Below, piece by piece: positions 20,419-60,502 of a stretch of 64,000 nucleotides of DNA (position 1 is its first letter; every line of letters begins with the position of its first letter). A program made the position numbers and the translations under genes. Source of the stretch: Acidipropionibacterium thoenii DSM 20276 (lineage in GTDB: Bacteria > Actinomycetota > Actinomycetes > Propionibacteriales > Propionibacteriaceae); assembly GCF_000423445.1 (NCBI RefSeq), contig NZ_KE384018.1, positions 78,909-142,908 on the forward strand. Direction: 5' to 3'. The notes under the pieces are model-generated. The model was not told the DNA's origin. It was given only the letters and a program-made list of their open reading frames with translations, and made no database searches.

Positions 20419-20456
20419 ATTTCCTCGATGTTTCCATGGACTGTCAAGGGCGGTAC
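20419..20456 (-). promoter_or_regulatory. GlnR-type operator of the SDR gene
   Basis: The minus strand reads GTACC-N6-GACAG-N6-GAAAC-N6-GAAAT. The known actinobacterial GlnR pattern is GTnAC-N6-GnAAC repeated every 22 bp. The second half fits well and the first half is weaker. It stands back to back with a similar site on the other strand. Confidence 0.55.
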
Positions 20457-20470
20457 ACAGTGCCGGATCT

Positions 20471-20508
20471 GTTACGCGGACGCGCTCGCACGGAAACCCT
20501 TCAGAAAT
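20471..20508 (+). promoter_or_regulatory. GlnR-type operator of the amidase/ABC operon
   Basis: GTTAC-N6-GCGCT-N6-GAAAC-N6-GAAAT, in exact 11-bp steps, lies 90-127 bases before the amidase ATG. Confidence 0.6.
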
Positions 20509-20597
20509 TTTCAACCACGAGGGTAACGAAAAAGGATGCCGGTGGATCTGGTCCTCCCCGGCATCTCCAGGACGGCAGAGTGGGAGTAGGGGAGCCG

Positions 20598-22061
20598 ATG
20601 AGTGGAACTGGCACGGTGAGTACCCAGGCGGGCGAGCTGAGCGGGATGAGTGCTGTCGATCTGGTGGCCGGCTACCGCGACGGGTCGCTCAGCCCGGTCG
20701 AGGTGGTCCAGGACGGGTTGGCCCTGATCGAGGATGCCGACCCCACCCTGCACGCCATGGAGAGGCTCTATCCCGACCGGGCGCTGGCAGCCGCGAGGGC
20801 CTCCGAGCGGCGGTACCGTGACGGGACGCCGATCTCCCCGGTCGATGGGGTGCCGGCCACCATCAAGGAGAACCAGCAGGTCACCGGGGATCCGAACCAG
20901 TGGGGCTCGGCCGCCGTCGACCCGGTTGCGGCCCAGCAGAACTCGCCTCTGGTCGACAAGCTGCTGGCCGCCGGGGTGCCGATCCTGGGGCGCACCGTGA
21001 TGCCGGAGCTGGGGATGCTGTCGTCCGGGCTGTCGACCCTCCACCCGATGGCGGTCAATGCGCAGAATGCCGCCTGGAACCCCGGAGGATCGACCGCCGG
21101 AGGGGGTGCCGCGGCGACCGCCGGGTACGCCCCATTCAACTTCGGCAGCGACATCGGGGGCTCGGTGCGGCTGCCGGCCTCCTGGAACGGTTGTGCCGGT
21201 TTCAAGCCGACCTTTGGCAGGATCCCCGTCGATCCGCCCTACTTCGGCCGCCACATCGGCCCACTCGGTCGTCATGTCGCCGACTTCTCGCTGGTGATGA
21301 CATCGTGCACCGGTCCGGACTACCGGGACCCCTACAGCCTGCCGGCCCAGGATCTGCCGTGGACCACCGCCGCCCCCTTCGACCCCAGGGGAGCCCGGAT
21401 CGGTCTGGTCCTGGACGTCGGCGACGGCGCCGAGGTCGACCCCGAGGTGAGAGACGCCGTCGCGGCGGCAGCCGGCCTCTTCGAGGCGGCCGGGGCCGTC
21501 GTCGAGGAGATCGCCCCCTACCTGGAGCCGGGAGAGATCACTCTCATCGACCTGTTCTGGCGGATCGGCCACTGGAACGACTACCGGAAGATGGATCCCG
21601 AACGGCGCAAGCTGATGCTGCCCTTCATCTCCGAGTGGTGCCGGGCGGGGGCGGGGATCGACGGTCCGCAGGCCGTCCACAGTGCCGACGAGCAGCTCAG
21701 GATGGCCCGTCGTACCATCGCGGTGACGCACCCCTATGACATCATCCTGTCCCCGGTCTCGCCAGGACCGACCTATCCGGCGGAGTGGCCGATGCCTTCC
21801 AATGACGTCCACGACCCGATGAGCCACATCGGATTCTGCGTGGTCTACAACATGTCCGGTCAGCCCGCCGTCTCGGTCAACTGCGGATACACCCGCGACG
21901 GGCGCCCGATCGGCCTGCAGGTGGCTGCGGCCCGCTACCAGGATGTCCTGGCGCTGTCGGCCGCCTCCTTCTACGAGGCCAACCGGCCGGCCGCCGCCCA
22001 ACGCCCCTGGCCACGAATCTGGGAGGATGCCGCCGGTTCCTCCTCCACTCCCACCGACTAG
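20598..22061 (+). CDS. Amidase signature family amidohydrolase
   Basis: This 487-residue enzyme has the amidase signature Ser-cisSer-Lys triad: Lys90 (TIKEN), Ser165 (GGSTAGGG) and Ser189 (SDIGGSVRLPA). Family members hydrolyse simple amides, ureido compounds or aryl amides to acid plus ammonia. The substrate is not evident, and it lacks GatA-specific context (no gatB or gatC). The ATG at 20598 follows GGGGAG; longer upstream reading would run through the GlnR-type operator. A peptide-type ABC importer follows at once (69-base gap), so the imported compound is probably the amidase substrate. Both may be induced in nitrogen shortage. Confidence 0.85.
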   Translation: MSGTGTVSTQAGELSGMSAVDLVAGYRDGSLSPVEVVQDGLALIEDADPTLHAMERLYPDRALAAARASERRYRDGTPISPVDGVPATIKENQQVTGDPNQWGSAAVDPVAAQQNSPLVDKLLAAGVPILGRTVMPELGMLSSGLSTLHPMAVNAQNAAWNPGGSTAGGGAAATAGYAPFNFGSDIGGSVRLPASWNGCAGFKPTFGRIPVDPPYFGRHIGPLGRHVADFSLVMTSCTGPDYRDPYSLPAQDLPWTTAAPFDPRGARIGLVLDVGDGAEVDPEVRDAVAAAAGLFEAAGAVVEEIAPYLEPGEITLIDLFWRIGHWNDYRKMDPERRKLMLPFISEWCRAGAGIDGPQAVHSADEQLRMARRTIAVTHPYDIILSPVSPGPTYPAEWPMPSNDVHDPMSHIGFCVVYNMSGQPAVSVNCGYTRDGRPIGLQVAAARYQDVLALSAASFYEANRPAAAQRPWPRIWEDAAGSSSTPTD

Positions 22062-22129
22062 GTCCCACCGGCCGAAGGCCATCAGCGGTACGTCCGACAG
22101 GGCACAGCCCTCAGGAAAGGAAACACCCC

Positions 22130-23662
22130 ATGCAACTCACATCTCGCAGACATTTCCTCGGACTGGTCGGTCTGGGTGCAGCTGCAGTCTCCCTGTCGGC
22201 CTGCAGCGCCGGCGCTCCGACCTCCAACAGCTCGACCTCCGGCTCGGCCGGCGGGTCCTCCACCGCGACCCTGAAGGTGGGCTTCGCGGCGATACCCCAG
22301 AGCCTCGACTTCACCACCACCGCCGGTGCCGCCATCATCCAGGCCCTGGTCGGCAATGTCTACGAGGGTCTGGTCCAGCTGGCCGATGACGGTTCCATCA
22401 AGCCACTGCTGGCCAAGTCGTGGAAGATCAGTGACGACGGGTTGAGCTACGACTTCACCCTCCAGGAGGGGGTCACCTTCCACAACGGCACCACGTTCGA
22501 CGCCGAGGTCGTGAAGTTCTCCCTGGAACGGATCCCCAAGTGGACGGCCAACACACCCGGCAATCTGGCCGCCATCGACCATGTCGACGTCGTCTCGGCC
22601 AGCGAGGCGAAGGTCGTCCTCAAGCAGGCCGACTTCTCCGCCCTGTTCTGGTTGGCCGGCCCGCTCGGTGCGATGTTCGACAAGGGAGCGATCTCGGCGC
22701 TGTCGACCAAGCCGGTGGGCACCGGGCCCTTCACCTTCGGCTCCTACGCCCGAAACTCCAAGATGATCCTCGACCGCAACGACTCCTACTGGGGTACCAA
22801 GGCACTGGTGAGGACCGCCGAGTTCGACTACTTCGCCGACGCCACCGCCGCCGCCAATGCGCTGCGCTCGGGCGGGGTGGACGCCCTCTACCAGGCCGAG
22901 GCGCTCGACCAGGTCGCCTCCTTCCAGAGCGACTCCAGGTTCGAGGTCACCAAGGGCACCACCCAGGGTGTCGTGGTGATGTCGATGAACACCATGAAGG
23001 GGCTGTTCAGCAATCCCAAGCTGCGCCAGGCCGTGATGTACGGGGTTGACCGCAAGGCTGTGCTGGCCGCCGCCGCCAGCGGCTACGGCACCGTCCTCGG
23101 CGGACCGGCGGTGCCGACCGATCCGTACTTCGTCGACTACGCCGACAAATATCCCTTCGACGCCGCGAAGGCCAAGCAGCTGGTCGCCGAGTCCGGCGTC
23201 ACCGATCTCAACGTCAACTTCACCGTGCCGGTGCGGCCCTACGCCCAGGCCGTCGCCCAGGTCGCCCAGCAGCAGCTCAACGCCATCGGCTTCACCGTCA
23301 AGCTGGTGCCCCAGGAGTTCCCGGCCGTCTGGCTGGACAAGACGCTGACCCAGCACCAGTTCGACCTGACGGTGACCAACCACGTCGAGCCCCGCTCGGT
23401 CACCAATTACGCGAACCCGAAGTACTACTGGTCCTACGACAACGCGGCTGTCCAGAAGCTCTTCGCCGACGCCGCTGCGGCCAAGGACGATGCGGCCTTC
23501 GTCGATGACACCAAGAAGGCGGTCGCCCAGATCGTCACCGATGCGCCCGGCAACTGGCTGTACAACCCGCCGAACATCGTCATCACCCGCAAGGGGGTCA
23601 GCGGGTTCTCGAAGAATTACATGGGGGTCGGCATCAACCTCGCCGGGGTCTCGGCCAGCTGA
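22130..23662 (+). CDS. ABC transporter solute-binding lipoprotein, family 5 (peptide/nickel type)
   Basis: This 510-residue extracytoplasmic binding protein begins with a twin-arginine signal (SRRHFLG, Arg6-Arg7) and a lipobox LSAC with Cys25. It should therefore be exported folded and then lipid-anchored. The mature part has the cluster C/family 5 fold: LKVGFAAIPQSLDF at the start and a DGLSYDFTLQEGVTFHNG block near residue 105. Relatives bind oligopeptides, dipeptides, nickel or glutathione. With an amidase upstream, an amide or peptide-like ligand is likely here. GGAAAGGAAA precedes the ATG. Confidence 0.9.
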   Translation: MQLTSRRHFLGLVGLGAAAVSLSACSAGAPTSNSSTSGSAGGSSTATLKVGFAAIPQSLDFTTTAGAAIIQALVGNVYEGLVQLADDGSIKPLLAKSWKISDDGLSYDFTLQEGVTFHNGTTFDAEVVKFSLERIPKWTANTPGNLAAIDHVDVVSASEAKVVLKQADFSALFWLAGPLGAMFDKGAISALSTKPVGTGPFTFGSYARNSKMILDRNDSYWGTKALVRTAEFDYFADATAAANALRSGGVDALYQAEALDQVASFQSDSRFEVTKGTTQGVVVMSMNTMKGLFSNPKLRQAVMYGVDRKAVLAAAASGYGTVLGGPAVPTDPYFVDYADKYPFDAAKAKQLVAESGVTDLNVNFTVPVRPYAQAVAQVAQQQLNAIGFTVKLVPQEFPAVWLDKTLTQHQFDLTVTNHVEPRSVTNYANPKYYWSYDNAAVQKLFADAAAAKDDAAFVDDTKKAVAQIVTDAPGNWLYNPPNIVITRKGVSGFSKNYMGVGINLAGVSAS

Positions 23663-23669
23663 GCCGATC

Positions 23670-23709
23670 CCGGTCCGGGTACGGGGTCGCGACCCCGTCC
23701 CCGGACCGG
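23670..23709 (+). terminator. Intercistronic hairpin after the binding-protein gene
   Basis: An 18-base perfect palindrome (ACGGGGTCGCGACCCCGT) is nested inside a 10-bp outer stem with one mismatch. Placed between binding protein and permease, it probably attenuates transcription or protects the upstream mRNA. Confidence 0.55.
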
Positions 23710-23749
23710 CCGGTGGCCCTGATGCGTGCCCCCAACGACAGGAGTTCAG

Positions 23750-24693
23750 ATGGCAGTCAATCTGCTGAGGCGGATCGGGATCTTCATCCTGACCGCCTTC
23801 GTCGCCTCGATACTGGTGTTCCTGCTGCTCAGCGTGGTGCCCGGCGACCCGGCCCGCGCCCAGCTGGGCACCGACGCCAGCCAGGCCGAGGTCGACGCCC
23901 TGCAGCAGCGGCTCGGCCTCAACCGGCCGGTACCGCTGAGATACCTGTTATGGCTCGGTGGGCTGCTGCACGGTGATCTGGGCACCTCATTCGTCACCCG
24001 CCAGTCGGTGACCCCCGAGGTGATGAACGCCCTCCAGGTCTCCCTGCTGCTGGTGGTGGCCGGCATGCTGGTGGCCGTCATCATCGCCATCCCACTCGGC
24101 ACCATGTCGGCGATGCGTCAGGGCAGGGCCGACGGGGTGGTGCTGTCCGCCCTCTCCCAGATCGGTATCTCCATCCCCAACTTCCTGATGGCCCTGCTGC
24201 TGGTGGTGGTCCTCGCGGTGAGGTGGGGGGTGGCCCCGGCCTCCGGATGGGTCGCCCCGGCGATCAGCCCCGGTGGATTCCTGGCCCATCTGATACTCCC
24301 GGCACTGGCGCTGGGGATCGTCCGCGGTGCCATCCTCAGCCGCTACACCCGTTCGGCGGTGCTCGACATCCAGCGCGACGACTTCATGCGGACCGCACGG
24401 GCCAAGGGCCTCACCTCGGGCAGGGCGCTGTGGCGTCACGGTCTGCGCAACGCCCTGATCCCGGTGGTGACGGTGACCGGCGTCGAGTTCTCCGGACTGC
24501 TGGTCGGTGCGGTGGTCATCGAGACCGTCTTCGTCATCCCGGGGCTGGGCTCGCTGCTGCTGCAATCGGTGGCCAACCGTGACATGGCCGAGGTGCAGGC
24601 GGTCGTGATGGTCATCGTCTTCATGGTGCTGCTGATCAATCTGCTGGTCGACCTCGCCTACACCATCATCGACCCACGTCTGAGGAGTGCCCG

Positions 24694-24697
<4 letters not shown>
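23750..24697 (+). CDS. ABC transporter permease, DppB/OppB type
   Basis: This is a 315-residue inner-membrane permease with six helices. The N-terminus (NLLRRIGIFILTAFVASILVF, then VVPGDPARAQLG) is typical of DppB. The cytoplasmic EAA loop is recognisable near YTRSAVLDIQRDDFMRTARAKGL, where it docks on the ATPase. ATG 23750 has CAGGAG upstream and is preferred over the ATG at 23726. Its stop overlaps the next permease start by four bases (ATGA), indicating translational coupling. Confidence 0.92.
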
Positions 24698-25586
<889 letters not shown>

Positions 25587-25590
<4 letters not shown>

Positions 25591-27425
25591 CCCTCAGCGG
25601 CAATCCCTCAGGAGCCCCACTCGAGCCGGACACTCGAATCGATCCGGGCGGCTCACAGCCGACGCCGGTGCTGACCGTTCGCGACCTGCGGGTCGGCACC
25701 GCCCACACCGAGATCCTGCACGGGCTGAACCTCACCATCAACGGCGGCGAGCGGGTCGGGCTGATCGGGGAGTCCGGCTCGGGCAAGTCGATCACCTGCC
25801 TGTCGGCGATGGGGCTGCTGCCCGACAACCTGTCGACCGGCGGATCGATCCGGCTGGCCGGGATCGAGGAGAATCTCCTGGAGATGCCGGAGGCCGCCCT
25901 CGCGCCGCTGCGCGGATCGCGGATGTCGATGGTCTTCCAGGAGCCGATGACCGCCCTCAACCCGCTGCAGAGGGTGGGCCGTCAGGTCGCCGAGGTCATC
26001 GACATCCACGGTCACGGACAGTCCCATCAGTCCTCCTCCGCACGGGCCGTCGAACTGCTCGACAGCGTCGGGATCCCCGATCCGGGTCGTGCCGCCCAGG
26101 CCTTTCCCCATCAGCTGTCGGGGGGCCAGCGCCAGCGGGTGATGCTGGCGATGGCGATGGCCAACACCCCCGACCTGCTGTTCGCCGACGAGCCGACCAC
26201 CGCCCTGGACGTCACCGTCCAGGCCCAGGTGCTGGAGCTGATGCGTCGCCAGGTGCGTGAGGCGGGGTCCAGCCTGTTGTTCATCACCCACGACCTGGCG
26301 ATCGTCGCCGAGATCTGTGAGCGGGTGCTCATCATGCGCCACGGCGAGCTGGTTGAGCAGGGCCCGATAGACCGGGTCTTCTCCGACCCGCAGCACCCCT
26401 ACACCAAGGCCCTGCTGGCGGCCTCCGGTCTGGAGGTCAACCCGAGCACCGGGCGGCTGGTGACACTGGCCGACCTCACTGCCGGGCCGGTGGTCGACCC
26501 GCAGCCAGGCAGCGAGGGCGAGGCCGCGCCGAGAGATCCGGCGGACCGGCCCGAGCGGACTCCTTTCAGGATTCACGAGAGCCTTCCCGATGGCCACCAG
26601 GGCACCATCGTGTTCAACCGGGCTCCGGCCAGCTCGGGACTGGCGCCGGCCATGGTGCAGGTCACCGAGCTCACCAGGACGTATCTGCGGCCGGGACGCG
26701 GTCTCAAGGGTCCGACCAAGGTCCCCGCGCTGCGCGGCGTCTCCTTCGACGTGCGCGAGGGCCAGCACTTCGGGATCGTGGGGGAGTCGGGGTGCGGCAA
26801 GTCCACCCTGCTGCGGATGCTCACCGGATTGGAGCGGGACGGCAGCGGGTCGGTCCAGATCGGCGGTCGGGAGGTGGTCGGCCAGCGCGAGCGCAACCTG
26901 AGATGGCTGCGTCAGGAGGTGCAGATCGTCTTCCAGGATCCGATGGGTTCACTCGACCCGAGGATGCGCGTCGAGGACATCGTCACCGAGTCGCTGATCG
27001 GGGTGCCCCGGTCGGAACGCCGCGAACGGGCCCAGAAGATCCTGCTGGACGTCGACCTGCCCGCCGACGCGGTGGACCGCTATCCCCACGAGTTCTCCGG
27101 GGGTCAGCGACAGCGGATCGCGATCGCCCGGGCGCTGGTCAACTCGCCGCGCATCCTGGTGGCCGATGAGGCGGTCTCGGCCCTGGATGTCTCGGTCCGG
27201 GCCCAGGTCCTCAACCTGCTCTCCGACCTGGTCGATGCCTACGGTCTCACCCTGCTGTTCGTCTCCCATGACCTGCACGTGGTGCGCCACGTCTGCGACA
27301 CGGTGGCGGTGATGAAGGCCGGCCGGATCATCGAGTGCGGCCCCACCGATGAGGTCTACGACTCCCCGCAGCACCCCTACACGGCCTCCCTGATCCGGGC
27401 GGTGCCCACCCTCCAGGTGGCCTGA
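25587..27425 (+). CDS. Fused two-domain ABC ATPase, OppD-OppF type
   Basis: One 612-residue protein carries both nucleotide-binding domains of the importer. The first (about residues 28-290) has [16 protein letters not shown] and [12 protein letters not shown]. The second (about 350-605) has [24 protein letters not shown] and [12 protein letters not shown]. Each is followed by the oligopeptide-family C-terminal region (QHPYTKALL and [13 protein letters not shown]). In the second domain Walker B reads ADEAVSALD, with Ala where Pro is usual; the catalytic Glu is kept. It starts at the ATGA overlap with the permease. This completes the SBP, two-permease, ATPase set. Confidence 0.93.
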
Positions 27426-27458: not shown

Positions 27459-27496
27459 GTCACCCAGGTGTGTGTGGACGGTAACGGTGCAGAAAT
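27459..27496 (+). promoter_or_regulatory. GlnR-type operator of the aminotransferase gene
   Basis: GTCAC-N6-GTGTG-N6-GTAAC-N6-GAAAT lies in exact 11-bp steps, with two perfect GTnAC elements 22 bp apart. AGTAAT follows 13 bases later as a possible -10 box. This is one of the clearest sites in the window. Confidence 0.7.
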
Positions 27497-27509
27497 ATTC
27501 AGAACCGAC

Positions 27510-27515
27510 AGTAAT
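27510..27515 (+). promoter_or_regulatory. Possible -10 box of the aminotransferase promoter
   Basis: AGTAAT lies 13 bases after the operator, embedded in a conserved ATTCA-N3/4-CCGACAGT context shared with 20400-20423 and 29192-29215. Confidence 0.4.
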
Positions 27516-27649
27516 GAATGTCGGGAGCGGGACCGCACCAGGCCCTCACCTCCCAGAACGGCGAAGCGCAGACCATGCCGGTGTGCTGGTCATCCCGGCG
27601 CCGCGGCGTCAGTCGGACCCACGCAGGACAGAACCGGAAGAAGGCATCG

Positions 27650-29065
27650 ATGTCCACCACGATGAGCAGCGAGACCGAAATCAGCAACGAGACCCCGGCC
27701 GAGCGGATCGTCGGCTGGGAGGAGGACTGCGGTGCGGCTGCGGTCGGCCATGACCTGAGCGGTGCCGATCTGGACGCCGCGGTGATCGAGGCCGATCACT
27801 CCCGGGTCTTCCACTCCTGGAGCGCCCAGGCCCACCTGCCCTCCTTCTCGGTGGCGGGCGGCTCGGGAGCCAGGCTGTGGGACTACGCCGGTAACAGCTG
27901 GATCGACTTCTCCAGCCAGCTCATCAACGTCAACATCGGCTACCAGCATCCCCGCGTGATCGCCGCGATCCGCAAGCAGGCCGAGGTGATCACCATGATC
28001 GCCCCCTCGACATCCAACAAGCAGCGCGCCGAGGCCGCCGGCAAGATCCTGGAGCATGCCCCGGAGGGATTCGAGAAGGTCTTCTTCACCAATGCCGGAG
28101 CCGATGCCAATGAGAACGCGATGCGGCTGGCCCGGCTCTACACCGGCCGCGACAAGATCATCTCCCGGTACCGCTCCTACCACGGCAACACCGGTGCGGC
28201 GATCGTGGCCACCGGTGACTGGCGGCGGATCCCCAACGAGTTCGCCCGTGGGCACGTCCACGTCTTCGGCCCCTATCTCTACCGCTCGGAGTTCTGGGCC
28301 ACCACCCCCGAGCAGGAGTGCGAGCGAGCCCTGGAGCACCTGGAGCACACCGTGATCGCCGAGGGCCCCGAGACGATTGCCGGAATCCTGCTGGAGTCGG
28401 TGCCCGGCACCGCCGGCATCATGGTTCCCCCGCCCGGCTATCTGGCCGGCGTCCGCAGGATCGCCGACAAGTACGGCATCGTGATGATCTGCGACGAGGT
28501 GATGGCCGGTTTCGGCCGCACCGGTTCCTGGTTCGCCTTCCAGAAGCAGGACGTCGTCCCCGACCTCATCACCTTCGCCAAGGGGGTCAACTCCGGATAT
28601 GTGCCGGCCGGCGGGATCATCCTCAGCTCGAGGATCGCTCACTCCTTCGACGACCGGGTCTTCCCCGGCGGCCTGACCTACTCCGGTCACCCGCTGGCGA
28701 TGGCGGCGATCGTCGCCACCATCACCGCGATGGAGGACGAGGGGATCGTCGAGAATGCCGACCGGATCGGTGAGAAGGTCCTGGGGCCCGGGCTCGGCGC
28801 GCTGGCCTCCAACCCGCTGGTCGGGGAGGTGCGCGGCACCGGCGTGTTCTGGGCCGTCGAACTGGTCGCCGACAAGTCCACCAGGCAGCGGCTGGACGGA
28901 TCGCGGCTGGCCGCGATCTCGGCCCGCTGCCAGGAGCTGGGGCTCATCCTGCCGGTCCACGACAACCGGATCCACGTCGTCCCGCCCTGCGTCATCACTG
29001 CCGACGAGGCCTCTCGCGGGATCGAGATCCTCGGCACGGCGCTCGCCGAGGAGGCCGCCAAGTAG
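27650..29065 (+). CDS. Class III omega-aminotransferase (likely beta-alanine:pyruvate)
   Basis: This is a 471-residue PLP enzyme of the class III aminotransferase family. Asp282 (ICDEVMAGFGRTG) contacts the pyridine nitrogen and Lys311 (TFAKGVNSGY) forms the internal aldimine. The class III signature spans the region between them. Family members move amino groups from beta-alanine, GABA or similar omega-amino acids. Because the following genes degrade uracil and thymine to beta-alanine and 3-aminoisobutyrate, I infer one of these as substrate. The ATG at 27650 has AGAAGG upstream; longer reading to 27518 would enter the leader. A GlnR-type operator starts 191 bases upstream and a hairpin terminator follows. 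Confidence 0.87.
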   Translation: MSTTMSSETEISNETPAERIVGWEEDCGAAAVGHDLSGADLDAAVIEADHSRVFHSWSAQAHLPSFSVAGGSGARLWDYAGNSWIDFSSQLINVNIGYQHPRVIAAIRKQAEVITMIAPSTSNKQRAEAAGKILEHAPEGFEKVFFTNAGADANENAMRLARLYTGRDKIISRYRSYHGNTGAAIVATGDWRRIPNEFARGHVHVFGPYLYRSEFWATTPEQECERALEHLEHTVIAEGPETIAGILLESVPGTAGIMVPPPGYLAGVRRIADKYGIVMICDEVMAGFGRTGSWFAFQKQDVVPDLITFAKGVNSGYVPAGGIILSSRIAHSFDDRVFPGGLTYSGHPLAMAAIVATITAMEDEGIVENADRIGEKVLGPGLGALASNPLVGEVRGTGVFWAVELVADKSTRQRLDGSRLAAISARCQELGLILPVHDNRIHVVPPCVITADEASRGIEILGTALAEEAAK

Positions 29066-29093: not shown

Positions 29094-29132
29094 CGGCGAG
29101 GGCCGGGGCTCCACAGGCCCCGGCCCTCGCCG
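29094..29132 (+). terminator. Terminator after the aminotransferase gene
   Basis: A perfect 16-bp GC stem (CGGCGAGGGCCGGGGC and its complement) with a 7-base loop lies 29 bases after the stop. A nearly identical stem ends the hydA gene. Confidence 0.65.
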
Positions 29133-29158
29133 TCTCCGGTGGGTCCTCCGGCCGATCT

Positions 29159-29196
29159 GTCACAAGGGCGTGGACGTCTGGTAACCGAGCGGAAAT
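29159..29196 (+). promoter_or_regulatory. GlnR-type operator of the preT-preA operon
   Basis: GTCAC-N6-GTGGA-N6-GTAAC-N6-GAAAT lies in exact 11-bp steps. Both GTnAC elements are perfect and 22 bp apart, as at 27459. Confidence 0.7.
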
Positions 29197-29283
29197 ATTC
29201 AACTCCGACAGTGTGTAGCAGAGGATCTCAATACCGGCGAGAGTTATGTGTGGCAGCAGGGCTGTCAATGAGAGAAGGCATGA

Positions 29284-29460
29284 ATGTCATCCACGATGAG
29301 CAGTCGGATCGAACGCCAAAATCGAGGCCTTGATCAGGACTGGGCCGTCCTGAGTATCTCTCTCAGAGGCCCGCGCGACGCACCCACCGATGCCGACGAC
29401 GGCATGTCGGGACGGCTCTGTGACCGCCATGATGCGGTCGCCCCGGAGGGTGCACTGTGA
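29284..29460 (+). CDS. Small ORF overlapping preT (possible leader peptide)
   Basis: This 58-codon frame starts with ATG 11 bases after AGAAGG and ends in a TGA that overlaps the GTG start of preT (GTGA). That geometry suits translational coupling. The N-terminus MSSTMSS mirrors MSTTMSS of the upstream aminotransferase, and 27 of 31 bases around the two starts are identical, so this leader looks duplicated from there. Third-position GC is lower than in neighbouring genes, so the rest may not be under protein selection. It could be a leader peptide, a remnant, or chance. No function is recognised. Confidence 0.4.
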   Translation: MSSTMSSRIERQNRGLDQDWAVLSISLRGPRDAPTDADDGMSGRLCDRHDAVAPEGAL

Positions 29461-30782
29461 CTGTCCGCAATCCTCCCGAGCTGCCGGAGCTCGGATCGGC
29501 CATGACCACCCCGCAGGCCGTCATCGAGGCTCAGCGATGCCTCTACTGCTATGCCGCCCCGTGCCAGCAGGCCTGCCCCACCCATATCGAGATCCCCACT
29601 TTCATCCGGCGGATCTCCAACCATGACGACCGGGGCGCGGCCCAGACGATCCTGGATGCCAATGTGCTGGGGGCCAGCTGTGCTCGGGTCTGTCCGGTCG
29701 AGGAGCTGTGCGAGGGCGCCTGCGTGCTCAACGACACCGAGGACCCGATCCAGATCGGACGCCTGCAGAGGTACGCCACCGACACCTTCAGCGCCAGCGG
29801 TCTGCCGATCATCGAGCCGGGCCCCGACACCGGCAGAAAGGTCCTCATCGTCGGATCCGGCCCGGCGGGACTGAGCGCTGCCGCCGAGCTGCGGCGGGAG
29901 GGACATCGGGTGGTGATCTGGGAGTCCCGCCAGCGGGCCGGCGGGTTGTCGACCTACGGCATCCTGCCGATCCGCGAACCCTTGCAGATCGCCCAGCACG
30001 AGGTGGACGAGGTCGCCCGAAGCGGGGTCGAGATCCTCACCGGTCACCCGCTGAGCTCGCATGCGGAGCTGATCGACGCCAGCGCCGAGTTCGACGCCGT
30101 GCTGCTGGCCACCGGGCTGGGCGCCACCACGCCGCTCGGGCTGGACCATGAGGAACTGGCCCTCGACGGACTGGACTACATCGCCACCGCCAAGCTGGAT
30201 CCCGACTCCCTTCCCCGGTTCGGCCGGGTGGCGGTGATCGGGGCCGGGAACACCGCCATCGACGCGGCCACCATCGCCCAGCGGTTCGGCTCCCGGACCG
30301 TGATCGTCTACCGGCGCGGCGAGCAGCAGGCGCCCTGCTACCCGGCCGAGCGCCAGTTCGCGCTGGCCGAGGGGATCACCTTCAGCTACCTCTCCCAGCC
30401 GGTCGGGGTGGTGGCCGACCAGGGCGTGGTCACCGGTGTGAGATGCCTGCGCACCGCGCTGGGGCCGACCGACCTGTCCGGTCGTGCCTCCTTCGCCACG
30501 GTGCCCGGCTCGGACTTCGTGATCGGCTGCGATGCCGTGATCAAGGCCAATGGTCAGGGCAGGCCCCAGGACTCGATGGGTGATCTCGAGATGGCCACCA
30601 GTCGCGGGTTCATCGCCGTCGACGCCGACTACGCGACCTCGATCCCAGGTGTCTGGGCCGCCGGCGACGCGGTGCGCTCGGTGGGCCAGGCCAGCACCGT
30701 GATGGCCGTCCAGGACGGCACACTCGCCGCCCGTTGCATTGACCGGGCCCTGATGGGCGTCACCGGCCGGAAGGGAGCCTGA
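29457..30782 (+). CDS. preT: NAD-dependent dihydropyrimidine dehydrogenase, PreT subunit
   Basis: PreT is the electron-input subunit of the bacterial dihydropyrimidine dehydrogenase, passing electrons between NAD(H) and the PreA subunit. The 441-residue protein has N-terminal Fe-S cysteines (Cys28, 31, 36, 40 and Cys75, 79, 85, 89) as in the glutamate synthase small-subunit family. An FAD site (LIVGSGPAGLSAAAEL) and an NAD site (VAVIGAGNTAIDAATIA) follow. GVWAAGDAVR closes the flavin pocket. GTG 29457 overlaps the stop of a small upstream ORF and no better start exists. preA begins 1 base after the stop. Confidence 0.9.
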   Translation: MTVRNPPELPELGSAMTTPQAVIEAQRCLYCYAAPCQQACPTHIEIPTFIRRISNHDDRGAAQTILDANVLGASCARVCPVEELCEGACVLNDTEDPIQIGRLQRYATDTFSASGLPIIEPGPDTGRKVLIVGSGPAGLSAAAELRREGHRVVIWESRQRAGGLSTYGILPIREPLQIAQHEVDEVARSGVEILTGHPLSSHAELIDASAEFDAVLLATGLGATTPLGLDHEELALDGLDYIATAKLDPDSLPRFGRVAVIGAGNTAIDAATIAQRFGSRTVIVYRRGEQQAPCYPAERQFALAEGITFSYLSQPVGVVADQGVVTGVRCLRTALGPTDLSGRASFATVPGSDFVIGCDAVIKANGQGRPQDSMGDLEMATSRGFIAVDADYATSIPGVWAAGDAVRSVGQASTVMAVQDGTLAARCIDRALMGVTGRKGA

Positions 30783-30783
30783 G

Positions 30784-32163
30784 ATGGCTGATCTGACATC
30801 GACCTTCTGCGGGGTCAGCGCGCCCAACCCGTTCTGGCTGGCCTCCGCACCGCCCACCAACTCGGCCTACCAGATCAACAAGGCCTTCGAGGCCGGCTGG
30901 GGAGGTGTGGTGTGGAAGACCATCGGCGCCCCGGTGCTCAACATCTCCAACCGCTACGGATCGCTGCGGCACGAGGGCCGCCAGCTGGTCGGGATCAACA
31001 ACATCGAGCTGGTCTCCGACCGCAGCCTGGACATCAGTCTCAAGGAGATCGCCGAGGTCAAGAAGGAGTGGCCCGACCGGGCGGTCTGGGTCTCGGCGAT
31101 GGTCGACGCCAGCCCGAAGGCCTGGCGTGAGATCGTCGACGCCATCGAGCAGACCGGCGCCGACGGGATCGAGCTCAACTTCGGATGCCCCCAGGGGATG
31201 TCTGAGCGGGGCATGGGTGCGGCCGTCGGCCAGGTCCCCGAACTGTGCGGCCAGAACACCGCTTGGGTGCGCGAGTGCACCAGTCTTCCGGTGATCTCCA
31301 AGCTCACCCCCAATGTCACCGACATCAAGGAGCCGGCGCTGGCGGCCCTGCAGGCCGGTGCCGATGCGCTCAGCCTGATCAACACCATCAACTCGATCGC
31401 CTCGGTCGACCTGGACACCGTCCATGTGCTGCCCGATGTCGGCGGTCGCGCCAGTCACGGTGGCTATGCCGGCCCCGCGGTGCGCCCGATCGCGTTGTAC
31501 ATGCTCTCGGAGCTGATGACCGATCCCAGGATCGCCGGCTTCGGCAGGCCGATCAGCGGCATCGGCGGAGTGCAGAGCTGGCAGGACGCCGCGGAGTTCC
31601 TCTGTCTGGGCGCCTCCTCGGTGCAGGTCTGCACCGCGGCGATGCACTACGGCTTCCGGATCGTCGGTGACCTGATCTCCGGACTGTCGAACTGGATGGA
31701 TGAGCACGGCTTCGCCACCATCGAGGACTTCCGCGGCAGGGCCCTGGCGGGGCTGGGCACCTACAACGACCTGGATCTGTCCTACAAGGCGGTGGCCCAC
31801 ATCGACCCGGCGAGGTGCATCACGTGCAATCTGTGCTGGGAGGCCTGCGAGGACACCGCTCACCAGTGCATCGACCTGGTGACTCCCGATGGCGAGGTGG
31901 TGCGGGCCGGCATCGACGAGTCCGTCAGTGGTGCCGCGAGCCGGCTGGGTCGGCCCCTCCCGCAGGTCCGGGAGGCCGATTGTGTCGGATGCGCGCTGTG
32001 CGCCAACGTCTGCCCCGTCGATGACTGCATCACGATGCAGACCCGAGACTCCGGCCGAGCTCCGGTGACCTGGCAGCAGATCACCGCCGAGCGGCCGGAA
32101 GTGACCGACAACTGGCTGGCCATGGATGCCTACCGGGACGAGGTGGGAATTCATATTCACTAG
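30784..32163 (+). CDS. preA: NAD-dependent dihydropyrimidine dehydrogenase, PreA subunit
   Basis: PreA holds the FMN site that reduces uracil and thymine to the 5,6-dihydro forms. The 459-residue protein is a dihydroorotate-dehydrogenase-like barrel (about residues 1-325). It has NFGCPQGMSERGMG, SKLTPNVTDI and SGIGGVQSWQDAAEFL. Two [4Fe-4S] motifs follow at the C-terminus: CITCNLCWEAC and CVGCALCANVCP. At the position of the general-acid cysteine of mammalian enzymes (GLACGQ) this protein reads GAAVGQ by eye alignment. It lies 1 base after preT, so the two subunits are co-translated. Confidence 0.93.
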   Translation: MADLTSTFCGVSAPNPFWLASAPPTNSAYQINKAFEAGWGGVVWKTIGAPVLNISNRYGSLRHEGRQLVGINNIELVSDRSLDISLKEIAEVKKEWPDRAVWVSAMVDASPKAWREIVDAIEQTGADGIELNFGCPQGMSERGMGAAVGQVPELCGQNTAWVRECTSLPVISKLTPNVTDIKEPALAALQAGADALSLINTINSIASVDLDTVHVLPDVGGRASHGGYAGPAVRPIALYMLSELMTDPRIAGFGRPISGIGGVQSWQDAAEFLCLGASSVQVCTAAMHYGFRIVGDLISGLSNWMDEHGFATIEDFRGRALAGLGTYNDLDLSYKAVAHIDPARCITCNLCWEACEDTAHQCIDLVTPDGEVVRAGIDESVSGAASRLGRPLPQVREADCVGCALCANVCPVDDCITMQTRDSGRAPVTWQQITAERPEVTDNWLAMDAYRDEVGIHIH

Positions 32164-32187: not shown

Positions 32188-32203
32188 TTGACAGCTGTTG
32201 ACA
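32188..32203 (+). promoter_or_regulatory. Possible -35 region of the NCS1 permease gene
   Basis: Two TTGACA hexamers start 10 bases apart (32188 and 32198). A weak -10 (ATCAAT or TCAATG) lies 16-17 bases after the second. Confidence 0.35.
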
Positions 32204-32274
32204 TTCGGATTCCATCGGCATCAATGCCTTCATTCCCAGAAGGCGACCCCAGACCCTCCCAGAAAGGCTCAGTC

Positions 32275-33891
32275 ATGAGCGTCACAAGACAAGGCTACGG
32301 CCAGCTGATACATGAGGACGGACGCGTTTCCGTCGACGACGTCAGCACCCTGGCCGACTCCACCCTCGCCAATCGCGACCTCGACCCGGTCCCGATCGAG
32401 AAGCGAACCTGGGGCACCTACAACTTCACCGCGCTGTGGGTCGGCATGGCCCACAACATCCCCTCCTGGACGCTGGCCTCCGGTCTGGTGGCCATCGGGA
32501 TGGACTGGAAGCAGTCGGTGCTGACCATCGTGGTCGCCAACATCATCGTGCTCATCCCGATCCTGCTCAATGGCCATGCCGGCACCAAGTACGGCATCCC
32601 CTTCCCGGTCTTCGTGAGGTCCTCCTTCGGTGTCCGCGGGGCCAACCTTCCGGCCATCCTGAGGGCCCTGGTCGCCTGTGCCTGGTTCGGCATCAACACC
32701 TGGATCGGCGGCTCCGGCATCTACCTGCTGGCCGGCAAGCTGATCGGCAACTGGTGGGTCAACGCCGCGGCCGTCGGCGGCCACCCGTGGACGATGTGGT
32801 TCTCCTTCGCGGTCTTCCTGGCCCTGGAGGTCTTCATCATCCTGCACGGGATGGAGGCGGTGCGGAGGTTCGAGAACTGGGCCGCCCCGGTCGTCATCGC
32901 CGCCGCGCTGGCACTGCTGATCTGGATCACCGTCAAGGCCGGCGGCTTCGGCAGCATCCTCAGCGAGCCCGGCACCCTGCACGGTGCCGCCTTCTGGAAG
33001 GTCTTCTTCCCCTCCCTGATGGGCATGATCGGGTTCTGGGCCACCCTGAGCCTCAACATCTCGGACTTCACCCGTTTCGGCGGTTCCCAGAAGGCTCAGA
33101 TCAAGGGCCAGGCGCTCGGCCTTCCCACCACCATGACGCTGTTCGCTCTGCTGTCGGTGCTGGTCACCGCCGCCGGTGAGCGGGTCTGGGGCACCGCGAT
33201 CTGGGATCCCATCGAGCTGACCGCCAAGATCGAGAACCCGATCGGCATCCTGGTCGCGCTGTTCACCGTTCTGGTGGCCTCGCTGTCGGTCAACATCGCT
33301 GCCAACCTGGTGAGCCCGGCCTACGACTTCGCCAATGCGCTTCCGAAGTACATCACCTTCAAGCGCGGAGCCATCGTGGCCATCATCATCGGTGTCCTCA
33401 TCCAGCCCTGGCGCCTGATTGCCAACCCGGACATGTACATCTTCACCTGGTTGGGCTTCTACGGCGGCATCCTCGGACCGATCGCCGGCATCCTCATCGG
33501 CGACTACTGGATCGTGCGCCAGAAGTTCCTGGTGGTTCCCGACCTGTACTCCTCCCGCAAGGACGGCGCGTACTGGTTCACCGGTGGCTGGAACTGGCGC
33601 GGAGTGGTCACCCTCGTGGTGTCTGCGCTGCTGGCCATCGGAGGGTCCTACTCCGGGGTCGACGCCAAGGGTGTCAAGAGCGGCCCCTTCCCGGTCGACG
33701 GCCTGATCCCCTTCCTCAAGCCGCTGGCCGATTTCGGATGGCTGATCGGCATCATCGCCGCGATCGTCCTGCAGGTGGCCTTCAACAAGATCTTCCCGCC
33801 GGCCCATCTGAAGGACTCGCTGCTCGATGAGTCCAGGCTGACGGTCCCCGAGCCGGTCGGCCCGAGGAATGTCCCCGACACCGTGGCCTGA
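32275..33891 (+). CDS. NCS1 family nucleobase/allantoin permease
   Basis: This 538-residue membrane protein of the nucleobase:cation symporter-1 family has about 12 helices. The opening block PIEKRTWGTYNFTALWVGMAHNI is the family's first helix. ACAWFGINTWIGG and the long GMIGFWATLSLNISDFTRF helix match regions lining the substrate site in Mhp1. Members import uracil, allantoin, hydantoins or cytosine. Lying between preA and the ureidopropionase gene, uracil/thymine or a dihydropyrimidine is the likely cargo. The ATG has AGAAAGG upstream; the frame's upstream extension to 32188 has no homology. Confidence 0.9.
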   Translation: MSVTRQGYGQLIHEDGRVSVDDVSTLADSTLANRDLDPVPIEKRTWGTYNFTALWVGMAHNIPSWTLASGLVAIGMDWKQSVLTIVVANIIVLIPILLNGHAGTKYGIPFPVFVRSSFGVRGANLPAILRALVACAWFGINTWIGGSGIYLLAGKLIGNWWVNAAAVGGHPWTMWFSFAVFLALEVFIILHGMEAVRRFENWAAPVVIAAALALLIWITVKAGGFGSILSEPGTLHGAAFWKVFFPSLMGMIGFWATLSLNISDFTRFGGSQKAQIKGQALGLPTTMTLFALLSVLVTAAGERVWGTAIWDPIELTAKIENPIGILVALFTVLVASLSVNIAANLVSPAYDFANALPKYITFKRGAIVAIIIGVLIQPWRLIANPDMYIFTWLGFYGGILGPIAGILIGDYWIVRQKFLVVPDLYSSRKDGAYWFTGGWNWRGVVTLVVSALLAIGGSYSGVDAKGVKSGPFPVDGLIPFLKPLADFGWLIGIIAAIVLQVAFNKIFPPAHLKDSLLDESRLTVPEPVGPRNVPDTVA

Positions 33892-33932: not shown

Positions 33933-33984
33933 CCAGGACCTGCCCCGAGAGTTTTGTACCGCAACAGATAAGGAATCTCGAACA

Positions 33985-34833
33985 ATGTCTGTAGTGAAAG
34001 CAGCGATCACCCAGTGCACCTGGACCGGTGACAAGCAGTCGATGATCGACAAGCATGTCTCCTACGTCGAGAAGGCCGCCGCCGAGGGCGTCCAGGTGAT
34101 CTGCTTCCAAGAACTGTTCTTCGGGCCCTACTTCGGCATCGTCCAGGACAAGAAGTACTACGACTACGCCGAGTCGATCCCCGGCCCGACCACTGACACC
34201 TTCTGCGAACTGGCCAGGAAGTACCACATGGTCATCATCCTTCCGATCTACGAGGAGGAGATGACCGGGGTGTACTACAACACCGCAGTCGTCATCGACG
34301 CCGACGGTTCGATTCTCGGCAAGTACCGCAAGTCCCAGATCCCGCACGTGAACGCCTTCTGGGAGAAGTTCTACTTCCGCCCCGGCAACACCGGCTTCAA
34401 GGTGTGGAACACCGCCGTCGGCAAGGTCGGCGTCTGTATCTGTTACGACCGTCACTTCCCGGAGAGCTGGAGATGCCTGGGACTGGCCGGAGCGGAGATC
34501 GTCTTCAACCCGAACGCCTCGGCCCCGGGCCTGTCGAACCGGCTGTGGGAGCTGGAGCAGTGCGCCGCCGCCGGTGCCAACGGCTACTTCGTGCTGGTGC
34601 CCAACCGGGTCGGCTTGGAGTCCGACGAGTTCGGCGAGGAGGCGGTCGACTTCTACGGCAGCTCCTTCGTGGCCGACCCGCGCGGCAACTATGTCGGTGA
34701 GGTCGGTTCCACCGACACCGAGGAGATGCTGGTGCGCGACCTGGACCTGGACATGATCGAGGACACCCGCCGTGACTGGCAGTTCTACCGGGACCGTCGT
34801 CCCGATCTCTACTCCCCGATCGTGGCGGGCTGA
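33985..34833 (+). CDS. Beta-ureidopropionase (N-carbamoyl-beta-alanine amidohydrolase)
   Basis: The enzyme hydrolyses N-carbamoyl-beta-alanine to beta-alanine, CO2 and ammonia, the third step of reductive pyrimidine breakdown. This 282-residue nitrilase-superfamily protein has the Glu43 (CFQELFFGPYF), Lys116 (KYRKSQIPH) and Cys153 (CICYDRHFPE) triad. The wording around each residue is that of the carbamoylase branch rather than the plain nitrilases. The eukaryote-type name for this nitrilase form is UPB1. GGAAT lies before the ATG as a weak ribosome site. It ends 9 bases before hydA. Confidence 0.9.
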   Translation: MSVVKAAITQCTWTGDKQSMIDKHVSYVEKAAAEGVQVICFQELFFGPYFGIVQDKKYYDYAESIPGPTTDTFCELARKYHMVIILPIYEEEMTGVYYNTAVVIDADGSILGKYRKSQIPHVNAFWEKFYFRPGNTGFKVWNTAVGKVGVCICYDRHFPESWRCLGLAGAEIVFNPNASAPGLSNRLWELEQCAAAGANGYFVLVPNRVGLESDEFGEEAVDFYGSSFVADPRGNYVGEVGSTDTEEMLVRDLDLDMIEDTRRDWQFYRDRRPDLYSPIVAG

Positions 34834-36309: not shown

Positions 36310-36345
36310 CGGCGAGGGTCGGGGTGGAAGCCCCGGCCCTCGCCG
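36310..36345 (+). terminator. Terminator after hydA
   Basis: A 15-bp GC stem (CGGCGAGGGTCGGGG against CCCCGGCCCTCGCCG, one G-T pair) has a 6-base loop. Its sequence is nearly that of the terminator at 29094. Confidence 0.6.
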
Positions 36346-36475
36346 TGCCCGCCAGCCCCTCCCGAGTGAGCTGTGCAGCGGAGCCGTAGGCTCAGCACCG
36401 GGGCAACGGGGCAGGGCGACGATCCAGCCCAGCCCCACGATGCCGAGAACGGTGCCGAGACGGAGGAGTCGAACA

Positions 36476-37498: not shown

Positions 37499-37603
37499 CG
37501 GCCCGGGCGGCGTCGCGCAGATGGTCCCCGAACCGCCGACCGGTCATCGCCCCGGCAGGTGACCACCGATCAACTCCCCTGTCACACCGATGATCCGAAC
37601 CGG

Positions 37604-54418: not shown

Positions 54419-54476
54419 GTTACATCTGTGTACCGCCATGTTACAGATTGACGATGCTCTGTTACGTCTCAGGGAC
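54419..54476 (+). promoter_or_regulatory. GlnR-like triple GTTAC repeat upstream of the Liv-type operon
   Basis: GTTAC occurs at 54419, 54440 and 54461, exactly 21 bp apart. The matching b-positions (GTACC, ACGAT, GGGAC) lie 11 bp after each. GlnR sites have a 22-bp period, so this fits closely but not exactly. Confidence 0.5.
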
Positions 54477-54504: not shown

Positions 54505-54510
54505 TACAGT
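54505..54510 (+). promoter_or_regulatory. Possible -10 box of the Liv-type operon
   Basis: TACAGT lies 92 bases before the GTG start, downstream of the repeated GTTAC elements. Confidence 0.35.
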
Positions 54511-54601
54511 TCCGAACAGGTTGTGCCGCCGACTCGTCGGCGCAACAGGAGAGGGCTCACCCGTCCTGCACCACGGGCACGGGAGCACTGGAGGGAAACA
54601 C

Positions 54602-56020: not shown

Positions 56021-56033
56021 GAAGGGAACTCTC

Positions 56034-58844: not shown

Positions 58845-58855
58845 GGGGCTTCTCG

Positions 58856-58906
58856 GCTCATCCCCGGTCACCTATCCCCACCCGGGGTTGGGGGCCGGGG
58901 ATGAGC
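58856..58906 (+). terminator. Terminator of the livHMGF operon
   Basis: A 12-bp perfect stem (GCTCATCCCCGG and its complement) encloses a smaller GC hairpin and begins 12 bases after the livF stop. Confidence 0.55.
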
Positions 58907-59007
58907 TGTGTCTGGGATCGGCTGGGGGTCAGCCACCCAGCGAGTACCTGCCAGTGACCATCAGTCCAGAGATCACCAGCCCAGAATCCATCAGGTCAGA
59001 GAACATG

Positions 59008-59043
59008 AGGAAGGGCCCGGTTCTTTCGAACCGGGCCCTTCCT
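59008..59043 (-). terminator. Terminator of the Liv-type binding-protein gene
   Basis: A perfect 16-bp stem (AGGAAGGGCCCGGTTC and its complement) with a 4-base loop lies in the convergent gap. It could act in both directions. Confidence 0.65.
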
Positions 59044-59072
59044 GATGTCTGGGTGTCAGCCCACCTCATCGA

Positions 59073-60386
59073 TCACAGCGAGGAGGTCTGCTGGCTCACC
59101 CACGGGGTCTTGTTGTCGGGGCCGGTGGTCTTGTAGAAGGAGATCGAGGCCTTGGTGACATCACCGGAGTCGTTGAAGTCGATCGGGCCGGACTCGCCCT
59201 CGTAGTCGATGTCGGTGCCCTTCTGGATCAGGGCGTAGCACTCCTTGAAGGAGGAGCACTTCGTGCCGTCCTTGGAGACCGAGACCAGGTTCTTCTGGAT
59301 CGCGGCGGGGGTGGTGCTCTTGCCCTGGGAGGCAGCCAGCGCGATCAGCGTGGTGGCGTCGTAGGACTCGGCCGCGTAGGAGTAGGAGCTCAGCGCCTTG
59401 CCGTTCGCCTTGTCCAGCTTGGCCTTCAGGCCCGAGGCGGGATTGACGCCGGGGGTGGAGAACTGGGCCCCGGTGATGTCGGGGTCGCCCTTGCCGAGGA
59501 TGCCGTTGTTGCCATCAGTGCCGTAGAAGGTCTTGAAGTCGAACTTGTTCTGCTGCAGGGATGCGGCGATGGCCTTGATCTCGTCGAAGGAGATCACCAC
59601 CAGGCCGTCGGGCTTGGCGGCCAGCACCTTGCTGACCTCGGCGTTGAAGTTCGTCGAGTTCGGGGTGAAGGGGACGTCGGCGACGACCTGGACGTTGTTG
59701 GCCTGCAGGGTGTTCTTGATCTGGGTGTTGAGCCCGGAGCCGTAGGCCTCGTTCATGTAGAGGATCGAGACCCGCTTGTGGCCGTCGGAGACGATCTTCT
59801 GGCCCAGTGCCTGGCCCTGGAGGACATCGCTGGGCACGGTGCGGAAGAACATCCCGTTGCTCTTGTTCGGATTGGTCAGCGAGGTATCGGTGGCCGCGGG
59901 GGAGATGAAGGGCACCTTCGCATTGGTGATCGTGCTGAACACCGTCTTGGTCACGGCCGAGGACTCCGGGGCCAGAATGGCATCGGTACCGGCCGACAGC
60001 AGCGCCTTGGCAGAGGAGGATGCGATGTCGGTGGTGGTGTCTCCGGAGTCCTTGATCGTCAGTTCGGTCTTGAACGAGGGATCCGCCGCATTGATCTCGT
60101 CAGTCGCCACCTTCGCACCTGCATTGGCCGCCGGCCCCAGCAGCGCCAGAGACCCGGTCTGCGGGTAGATCGCGCCGATCTTGAGGGTGCCGGAGCCGCC
60201 GGCGGCCGAGCCACTGGAGGAGTCGCCCGCGGTGCCGGAGCTTGATGAGCCACAGGCGGCCAGCACCATCACTGACAGCGATGCGGCAGCGGCCTTGAGA
60301 GCCATTTTTCGCGGGCGCGAGAACCCGGTGGAGGGAGTGCTCGACACTTCGGGTGAAGTGTGACGACCCGTAGAACTGGGGTGCAT
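59073..60386 (-). CDS. Branched-chain amino acid/amide-binding lipoprotein (LivJ/K type)
   Basis: This 437-residue extracytoplasmic protein of the periplasmic-binding type I fold has lipobox LAAC (Cys45) after a rather long, basic N-region. The mature part begins LKIGAIYPQTGSLALLGPAANAG, the hallmark of LivJ/LivK and amide-binding AmiC-like proteins. The AGAGGAA before ATG 60386 supports the long start; an internal ATG at codon 28 is an alternative. It faces the livHMGF operon, which lacks a binding protein, so it supplies that importer. A close-to-perfect GlnR-type site lies 79-116 bases upstream. Confidence 0.92.
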   Translation of the reverse strand: MHPSSTGRHTSPEVSSTPSTGFSRPRKMALKAAAASLSVMVLAACGSSSSGTAGDSSSGSAAGGSGTLKIGAIYPQTGSLALLGPAANAGAKVATDEINAADPSFKTELTIKDSGDTTTDIASSSAKALLSAGTDAILAPESSAVTKTVFSTITNAKVPFISPAATDTSLTNPNKSNGMFFRTVPSDVLQGQALGQKIVSDGHKRVSILYMNEAYGSGLNTQIKNTLQANNVQVVADVPFTPNSTNFNAEVSKVLAAKPDGLVVISFDEIKAIAASLQQNKFDFKTFYGTDGNNGILGKGDPDITGAQFSTPGVNPASGLKAKLDKANGKALSSYSYAAESYDATTLIALAASQGKSTTPAAIQKNLVSVSKDGTKCSSFKECYALIQKGTDIDYEGESGPIDFNDSGDVTKASISFYKTTGPDNKTPWVSQQTSSL

Positions 60387-60464
60387 TTGAATTCCTCTCA
60401 GAGGAGCTGATCACTACTTGTCGGCGACGCTAGTGGGGCGTCTGGTTCGCAGCGAAACGATGGC

Positions 60465-60502
60465 GTTTCTGTCGTGTTACACACCTAGCCAAGCCAGATT
60501 TC
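60465..60502 (-). promoter_or_regulatory. GlnR-type operator of the Liv-type binding-protein gene
   Basis: The minus strand reads GAAAT-N6-TGGCT-N6-GTAAC-N6-GAAAC in 11-bp steps. The GTAAC-N6-GAAAC half is an exact match to the known GlnR consensus. Confidence 0.7.

Follow-up and report, generated by a model that had tools for sequence, protein, structure and literature searches.

How do newly gained catabolic genes come under the nitrogen control of their host? The question is raised by a 64,000-nucleotide stretch of the Acidipropionibacterium thoenii DSM 20276 genome (Propionibacteriaceae; C1:78909-142908 of genome G000, 2.94 Mb in 45 contigs), referred to below as the window. A sequence-only reading had placed five 38-bp elements of the layout 5-N6-5-N6-5-N6-5 upstream of a short-chain dehydrogenase/reductase (SDR) gene (20419), an amidase/ATP-binding cassette (ABC) transporter operon (20471), an aminotransferase gene (27459), the uracil-breakdown gene preT (29159) and a Liv-type binding-protein gene (60465), and had assigned all of them to one regulon of the nitrogen regulator GlnR. 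On reading the sequence all five elements are present with that spacing, the sites at 27459 and 29159 each contain two perfect GTnAC boxes, and the site at 60465 contains an exact GTAAC-N6-GAAAC. As a single GlnR set the five survive in part: they are not five independent consensus matches, while four of them, named A to D here, share one promoter module. On balance we favour the view, which draws on predicted sites, that GlnR activates the SDR, amidase/ABC, aminotransferase and uracil-breakdown genes under nitrogen shortage, and most likely a regulator of the MocR type acts alongside it.

A promoter module in four copies

The sites at 20419, 20471, 27459 and 29159 are copies of one promoter module of about 59 bp, made up of boxes repeating every 11 bp, the stretch TATTCA and, at a fixed offset from the last box, a -10-like element. 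The copies are as follows.

20398..20456, minus strand: module A, facing the SDR gene; GTACC-N6-GACAG-N6-GAAAC-N6-GAAAT-ATTCA-N5-GACAGT; counterpart in the SDR promoters of the related genomes G001 and G003
20471..20529, plus strand: module B, facing the amidase/ABC operon; -10 part diverged (GAGGGT)
27459..27517, plus strand: module C, facing the class III aminotransferase gene; boxes GTCAC, GTAAC and GAAAT
29159..29217, plus strand: module D, before the preT operon; probably copied from C

The core GGWAAC-N6-GAAATWTTCA has exactly four matches in the 2.94 Mb genome, all of them at A to D; the next best place has three mismatches, and the reversed control of the pattern gave one match at up to three mismatches. 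A post hoc pattern, combining the letters of boxes a1, a2 and b2 with those of the -10 element, occurs three times in the window and in 0 of 60 dinucleotide shuffles. Using a matrix built from four relatives' sites, modules A to D were the top four places of the window (scores 34-50; next 9.8), and with the box columns alone they scored 20-29, the next window place reaching 13. The relatives' sites had been found with a pattern derived from the window sites, so this test is not fully independent; its other loci amount to 382,950 bases and overlap one another. The place scoring 9.8, at 33939, was rejected as a fifth module: it runs into the 5' end of the hydrolase gene, and the boxes are missing.

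Ten modules were aligned, i.e. the four of the window, two each from G001 and G003 and one each from G019 and G105; G002 was left out, as was G041, whose copy is identical to that of G105. The same letter is found in at least eight of the ten at columns 1, 2, 4, 5, 12, 22, 23, 25-27, 31 and 34-44, and further at columns 49-51, 53-56 and 68. Columns 1, 12, 23 and 34 mark 11-bp steps. After the last module box comes a gap of ten bases and then a hexamer with A as its second and T as its sixth letter, and TAGTTT of the glnA promoter and GAAGAT of the amtB promoter fall on the same columns (49-54), with an identical box-to-hexamer offset. Such a geometry of boxes and -10 element is that of OmpR/PhoB-type activators, which replace the -35 element. 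The TATTCA stretch has no counterpart in the glnA or amtB promoters. A search of the promoter region 20301-20620 for a plasmid origin gave no match.

Occurrence of the module in relatives

A counterpart of the aminotransferase is present in 31 of 197 family genomes. Thirty loci were given and 29, leaving out the window's own, were examined (L116-L144), with flanks of at most 1.5 kb that are shortened in some cases. Five of the 29 carry a MocR-type regulator gene within these flanks, and all five have the module, in promoters that match those of the window and beside the regulator gene. Among the 24 loci with no such gene in the flanks, G002 has a reduced form, and in the other 23 there is no match even with three mismatches allowed. 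Counterparts of module C in particular are found in G001, in G003 (a sister genome of the same genus) and in G019, G105 and G041, which belong to another genus (g16). The SDR and aminotransferase genes of G003 and G001 stand side by side in divergent orientation, with two modules in the DNA between them, one facing each gene; in g16 a single module precedes the aminotransferase gene. The order in G019 (L118) is the MocR-type gene in reverse orientation, module, aminotransferase, SDR and amidase, and it is this order in another genus that links the amidase to the aminotransferase/SDR pair. The intergenic DNA around the modules hardly aligns between species, and the module columns are kept across the two genera. 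The regulator gene of the window lies next to the SDR gene.

18276..19460, minus strand: MocR-type regulator (GntR and aminotransferase-like domains); frame broken after codon 195, the remainder in another frame

Across 198 family genomes an extended pattern has matches at up to one mismatch in nine. Its ten zero-mismatch matches all lie at this cluster, and since they are thus confined to a place beside a MocR-type gene, a pathway-specific regulator is probably involved. Four further matches have one mismatch, module B and one each in G175, G143 and G114; the reversed control gave none. The latter three were taken as chance, stop-to-stop frames of 589, 208 and 339 codons spanning them.

The reduced form in G002 helps to separate the parts of the module. 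This genome has no MocR or SDR genes here, and its promoter keeps GTCAC, GAAAC, GAAAC and GACAGT and lacks TATTCA. Because the boxes and GACAGT persist where the regulator is missing and TATTCA is lost, we read the module, on the strength of this one natural variant, as a GlnR part joined to a MocR part (TATTCA).

GlnR and its predicted sites in the genome

The C-terminal domain of OmpR-type regulators matches nine places in the genome. One gene, at C1:65921-66574 (L006), about 12 kb before the window, is a candidate GlnR. The nearest solved relatives of its product are 8hig (176 bits), 8hih (173 bits) and 8hml (126 bits), which we take to be GlnR, the structure table giving generic names only; RegX3 (106 bits) and MtrA (84 bits) follow. 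Structure 4o1h, labelled GlnR in the same table, matches over the receiver domain (48 bits). The glnR gene that the sequence-only reading had asked for is thus represented by an orthologue, with 8hig and 8hih the best matches, well above RegX3 and MtrA.

The genome was scanned with the published consensus GTNAC-N6-GNAAC-N6-GTNAC-N6-GNAAC, and up to three mismatches there were 19 matches versus 13 in the reversed control. The best two, as had been expected of glnA and amtB, are at these genes: the sole zero-mismatch four-box site lies upstream of glnA and the sole one-mismatch site upstream of amtB (0 and 1 mismatch in 16 letters). Because the orthologue and the best four-box sites at glnA and amtB occur together, a GlnR regulon is very likely in this genome. 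Within the window a three-mismatch four-box match also occurs at 37559-37596 (plus strand), just upstream of a gene at 37616 resembling phosphoribosylformylglycinamidine synthase (AIRS domain); the class to which it belongs hardly exceeds the reversed control genome-wide.

Genes behind the modules

The window contains 171 open reading frames (ORFs) of at least 120 aa, and the Pfam scan covered 35 of its proteins. The genes that the modules face are listed below.

19521..20309, minus strand: SDR, YdfG/sulfoacetaldehyde reductase type by similarity; none of the best NCBIfam models over its cut-off
20598..22061, plus strand: amidase, NF005450 over cut-off; G019 has a relative with 72% identity in its aminotransferase-SDR-amidase run
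22130..27425, plus strand: oligopeptide/dipeptide-type ABC transporter (binding protein, permease, ATPases)
27650..29065, plus strand: class III aminotransferase; among solved structures closest to 6jix, a taurine:2-oxoglutarate aminotransferase
29457..32163, plus strand: preT (from Pfam domains and neighbourhood) and preA, dihydropyrimidine dehydrogenase subunits
32188..33891, plus strand: NCS1-type nucleobase permease
33985..34833, plus strand: carbon-nitrogen hydrolase, likely a beta-ureidopropionase by context
34843..36261, plus strand: dihydropyrimidinase (542 bits, NCBIfam cut-off 393)

Among solved structures the aminotransferase matches 6jix with 328 bits and the next with 239. The SDR scores 131 bits against IsfD, 142 against YMR226C and 138 against another SDR; similarity places it with the 3-hydroxyacid dehydrogenases (YdfG) and the sulfoacetaldehyde reductases and does not decide between the two. 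The sequence-only reading held that all genes downstream of the elements release or import organic nitrogen. The SDR is an exception: its more likely role is to reduce the aldehyde that the aminotransferase reaction leaves behind. The divergent aminotransferase/SDR pair would be the original target of the module, and would move an amino group to 2-oxoglutarate and reduce the residual semialdehyde, as in taurine nitrogen assimilation.

PreA scores 627 bits (NCBIfam cut-off 335), and for PreT no NCBIfam model is over its cut-off among the matches listed. The carbon-nitrogen hydrolase scores 182 bits against N-carbamoylputrescine amidohydrolase and 165 bits against named beta-ureidopropionases, its best NCBIfam model giving 262 bits, under the cut-off of 410. 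With the functions predicted for them, preT, preA, the permease, the hydrolase and the dihydropyrimidinase fit a complete reductive route from uracil to beta-alanine, a pathway that is well established. Beta-alanine is an analogue of taurine, and the same aminotransferase/SDR pair could process it.

Two other genes of the window may be mentioned. An asparaginase gene, also nitrogen-releasing, lies near the cluster at 15569-16567 (plus strand), and the genome scan found no exact core match there. The gene at 39955-42324 (plus strand) resembles those of nitric oxide reductases and encodes NorB cytochrome c-like and COX1 domains.

Probable gene gain and copying of control parts

Both the amidase/ABC and the uracil-breakdown operons are absent at this place in the sister species compared. 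Between the SDR and aminotransferase genes the aligned blocks leave 396 bp in G003 and 534 bp in G001 versus 7.3-7.5 kb in the window, which holds the amidase/ABC operon there; between the aminotransferase gene and MeaB they leave 131 bp in G003 and 171 bp in G002 versus 7.4 kb in the window (preT to dihydropyrimidinase). For the insertion before MeaB the evidence comes from G002 and G003, because G001 shows no MeaB block after the aminotransferase; G004 is without such an aminotransferase. At E<=1e-60 preA is found in one of 197 family genomes, this one, and in three of 396 phylum genomes, this one included. A preTA search of named genomes returned three Roseateles/Pelomonas loci at 42-43% identity; closer relatives, P0002 and P0003, are 83-85% identical.

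Besides module D, three further features connect the uracil operon with its neighbour.

29284..29460, plus strand: leader ORF of 58 codons; start region resembling the aminotransferase start, stop overlapping the preT start (GTGA)
29094..29133, plus strand: terminator-like hairpin after the aminotransferase gene
36310..36346, plus strand: near-identical second hairpin, following the uracil operon

The start-codon regions of the aminotransferase gene and the preT operon match at 33 of 41 bases, above all of 300 shuffles. The hairpin word occurs nowhere else in the window, to which the search was limited. To judge by these likenesses, the promoter and start-codon region of the neighbour, and probably its terminator as well, have been copied to the uracil operon; with the leader match of module D and the twin hairpins, the whole resembles a transcription unit that was duplicated and then had its body replaced. 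The two operons would have entered beside the aminotransferase/SDR pair, the uracil operon arriving with a copy of the pair's promoter, start region and terminator, and a likely GlnR switch was thereby probably copied onto newly gained genes. The most specific version of these events is possible but tentative: a taurine-type aminotransferase gene would have been duplicated together with its GlnR/MocR promoter, its start-codon region and its terminator, and a uracil-to-beta-alanine operon would have taken the place of the gene body. A single nitrogen switch would then drive a pathway whose end product can be finished by the old aminotransferase/reductase pair.

Liv-type sites

The fifth element differs from the modules. 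The features in and around the Liv-type genes are the following; for the binding-protein gene the species compared are the window's own and those of G001, G002 and G003.

60465..60480, minus strand: GlnR-type site of two boxes, GTAAC-N6-GAAAC, before the gene of the Liv-type binding protein
60516..60531, minus strand: second box pair, GTCAC-N6-GTCAC, likewise before the binding-protein gene; three of four species retain it
59073..60386, minus strand: Liv-type binding protein
54419..54465, plus strand: GTTAC three times, spaced by 21 bp, ahead of the liv permease operon

The form GTnAC-N6-GnAAC at 60465 is kept in all four species, with the spacer and both n positions varying; the first two boxes of the 38-bp element (GAAAT and TGGCT) are not conserved in relatives. 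Exact two-box sites number two in the window versus 0.8 expected, with a maximum of five in 60 shuffles, and such a site is in itself unremarkable. A -10-like TAnCGT, kept in 4/4 species, sits 32 bases beyond the site in the own genome, and the box-to--10 offset therefore differs from that of the modules. The binding-protein gene would have a separate and simpler GlnR-type site. A triple repeat had also been noticed before livH; the GTTAC words are there, at 54419, 54440 and 54461, with a spacing of 21 bp and not 22. The last two are kept in all four species compared and the first, as GTnAC, in three.

Alternative explanations

Several observations weigh against GlnR as the activator at the modules. 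The published consensus alone does not single out the sites: A and B match it at 11 of 16 letters, C and D at 12 and the site at 60465 (E) at 10, and 28 window places reach at least 11 letters and six reach 12. None of the five is among the 19 genome matches at up to three mismatches. Given the 28 places and the scan of 19 matches versus 13, the consensus is insufficient for the claim, and proof of GlnR sites by consensus only was rejected. In the a-b-a-b arrangement of GTnAC and GnAAC, A to D conserve three boxes; of box 2 nothing but the initial G is kept, and the final letter of the last box is T instead of the consensus C. The expectation that the sites would score above chance is thus disappointed for the consensus alone within the window, while the cross-species comparison and the uniqueness of the module do stand above chance. 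The full module is found solely beside MocR-type genes (5/5 loci with the gene versus 0/24 without), and MocR proteins, too, recognise direct repeats, spaced by two or three helical turns and mostly containing a TGT or TGG group (PMC5320631); TGT on the other strand (ACA, columns 50-52) is present in 7/10 modules. The frame of the MocR-type gene is broken in this assembly, at about 18875. The database protein P0123 (17 members) is intact, has both GntR and PF00155 domains, is identical to the window's regulator over the first 195 residues and agrees with the remainder at 263 of 264; the open frames are intact in G001 and G003.

The main rival accordingly takes the module for the promoter-operator of the MocR-type regulator alone, dimers reading the repeats 22 bp apart and switching with substrate or the pyridoxal phosphate state, with no nitrogen signal and a coincidental likeness to GlnR sites. 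It draws on the weak consensus match, on the zero-mismatch matches confined to the cluster among 198 family genomes and on the occurrence beside MocR. Yet the 11-bp period runs over three conserved boxes and G12, which are not two repeats, no TGT or TGG is invariant, the -10 offset equals that of glnA and amtB, and G002 retains the boxes and GACAGT with no MocR gene at this place and loses only TATTCA; we regard this rival as unlikely. Another OmpR-type regulator, e.g. MtrA or PhoP, might instead read the 11-bp boxes, as such regulators can share GlnR boxes. The nine domain matches in the genome would accommodate one, and the GlnR review PMC10704036 reports that PhoP and GlnR sites overlap and that MtrA competes, and it cites a paper whose title speaks of MtrA binding to GlnR boxes. 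That the best four-box sites, of the same geometry, are at the classical GlnR targets glnA and amtB and that the gene content is one of nitrogen scavenging make this quite improbable. The shared sequence could also be recent duplication without regulatory meaning, as the leader sequence common to C and D and the twin hairpins around the uracil operon might suggest. This is the least credible of the alternatives and very improbable: the module columns are kept in two genera where the surrounding DNA hardly aligns, and G001 and G003 each have separate counterparts of A and of C. As to history, the uracil and amidase operons may be ancestral and lost in the sister species rather than gained. A related amidase does adjoin the aminotransferase and SDR genes in another genus, but the rarity of preA in family and phylum and the resemblance of module D to the leader of C render such loss improbable.

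Activation by GlnR with a MocR-type co-regulator is preferred, and would operate as follows. GlnR would bind the boxes head to tail and stand in for the -35 element, and TATTCA would be the operator of the neighbouring MocR-type regulator, which would supply the substrate signal.

Significance and comparison with known systems

The locus may offer a readable case of gained catabolic genes coming under global nitrogen control by a copied neighbour promoter and not by new sites. It predicts that Acidipropionibacterium, which is used in industry, draws nitrogen from uracil and from taurine (or beta-alanine) under a shared control. The natural variant of G002, in addition, seems to part the GlnR-like from the MocR-like portion of the promoter.

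As far as the literature searched shows, what is new is a composite promoter specific to this cluster, conserved between species and likely copied onto the gained operons. Nitrogen control of reductive uracil breakdown, which the sequence-only reading took to be undescribed in propionibacteria, is in itself known: in M. smegmatis reductive pyrimidine breakdown is induced under nitrogen limitation (PMC4617892) and growth on uracil depends on GlnR (PMC4222082). No description of it in propionibacteria was found in open-licence literature, and none of the 8 papers listed, of 1,347 from a broader search, contained the genus name; a match for P. freudenreichii was discounted, the term there meaning glutaminyl-tRNA synthetase. 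Unlike uracil use in M. smegmatis, the system predicted here has a preTA that is rare in the family and a promoter likely copied from a neighbour.

A taurine-type aminotransferase with an SDR reductase is also encoded in the IsfD-type taurine clusters of Klebsiella oxytoca and Chromohalobacter, and a taurine-type pair under predicted nitrogen control agrees with IsfD-type taurine nitrogen assimilation (PMC6616044). In that paper IsfD clusters are predicted only in Proteobacteria, whereas the cluster here is actinobacterial; its regulator is of the MocR type, with TauR as the counterpart in other taurine clusters (PMC5320631). The regulons of the MocR subfamily (PMC5320631) are similar in that a protein with GntR and aminotransferase-like parts is encoded beside an aminotransferase gene, and the module described here differs from them in its 11-bp period and fixed -10 offset. 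A further close system is the actinobacterial GlnR regulon of Streptomyces and Mycobacterium (review PMC10704036), with an OmpR-type GlnR, tandem GTnAC-N6-GnAAC at glnA and amtB and nitrogen-scavenging genes downstream, all of which are paralleled here; the module departs from that regulon in having no good second box, in ending in GAAAT and in carrying an additional conserved TATTCA.

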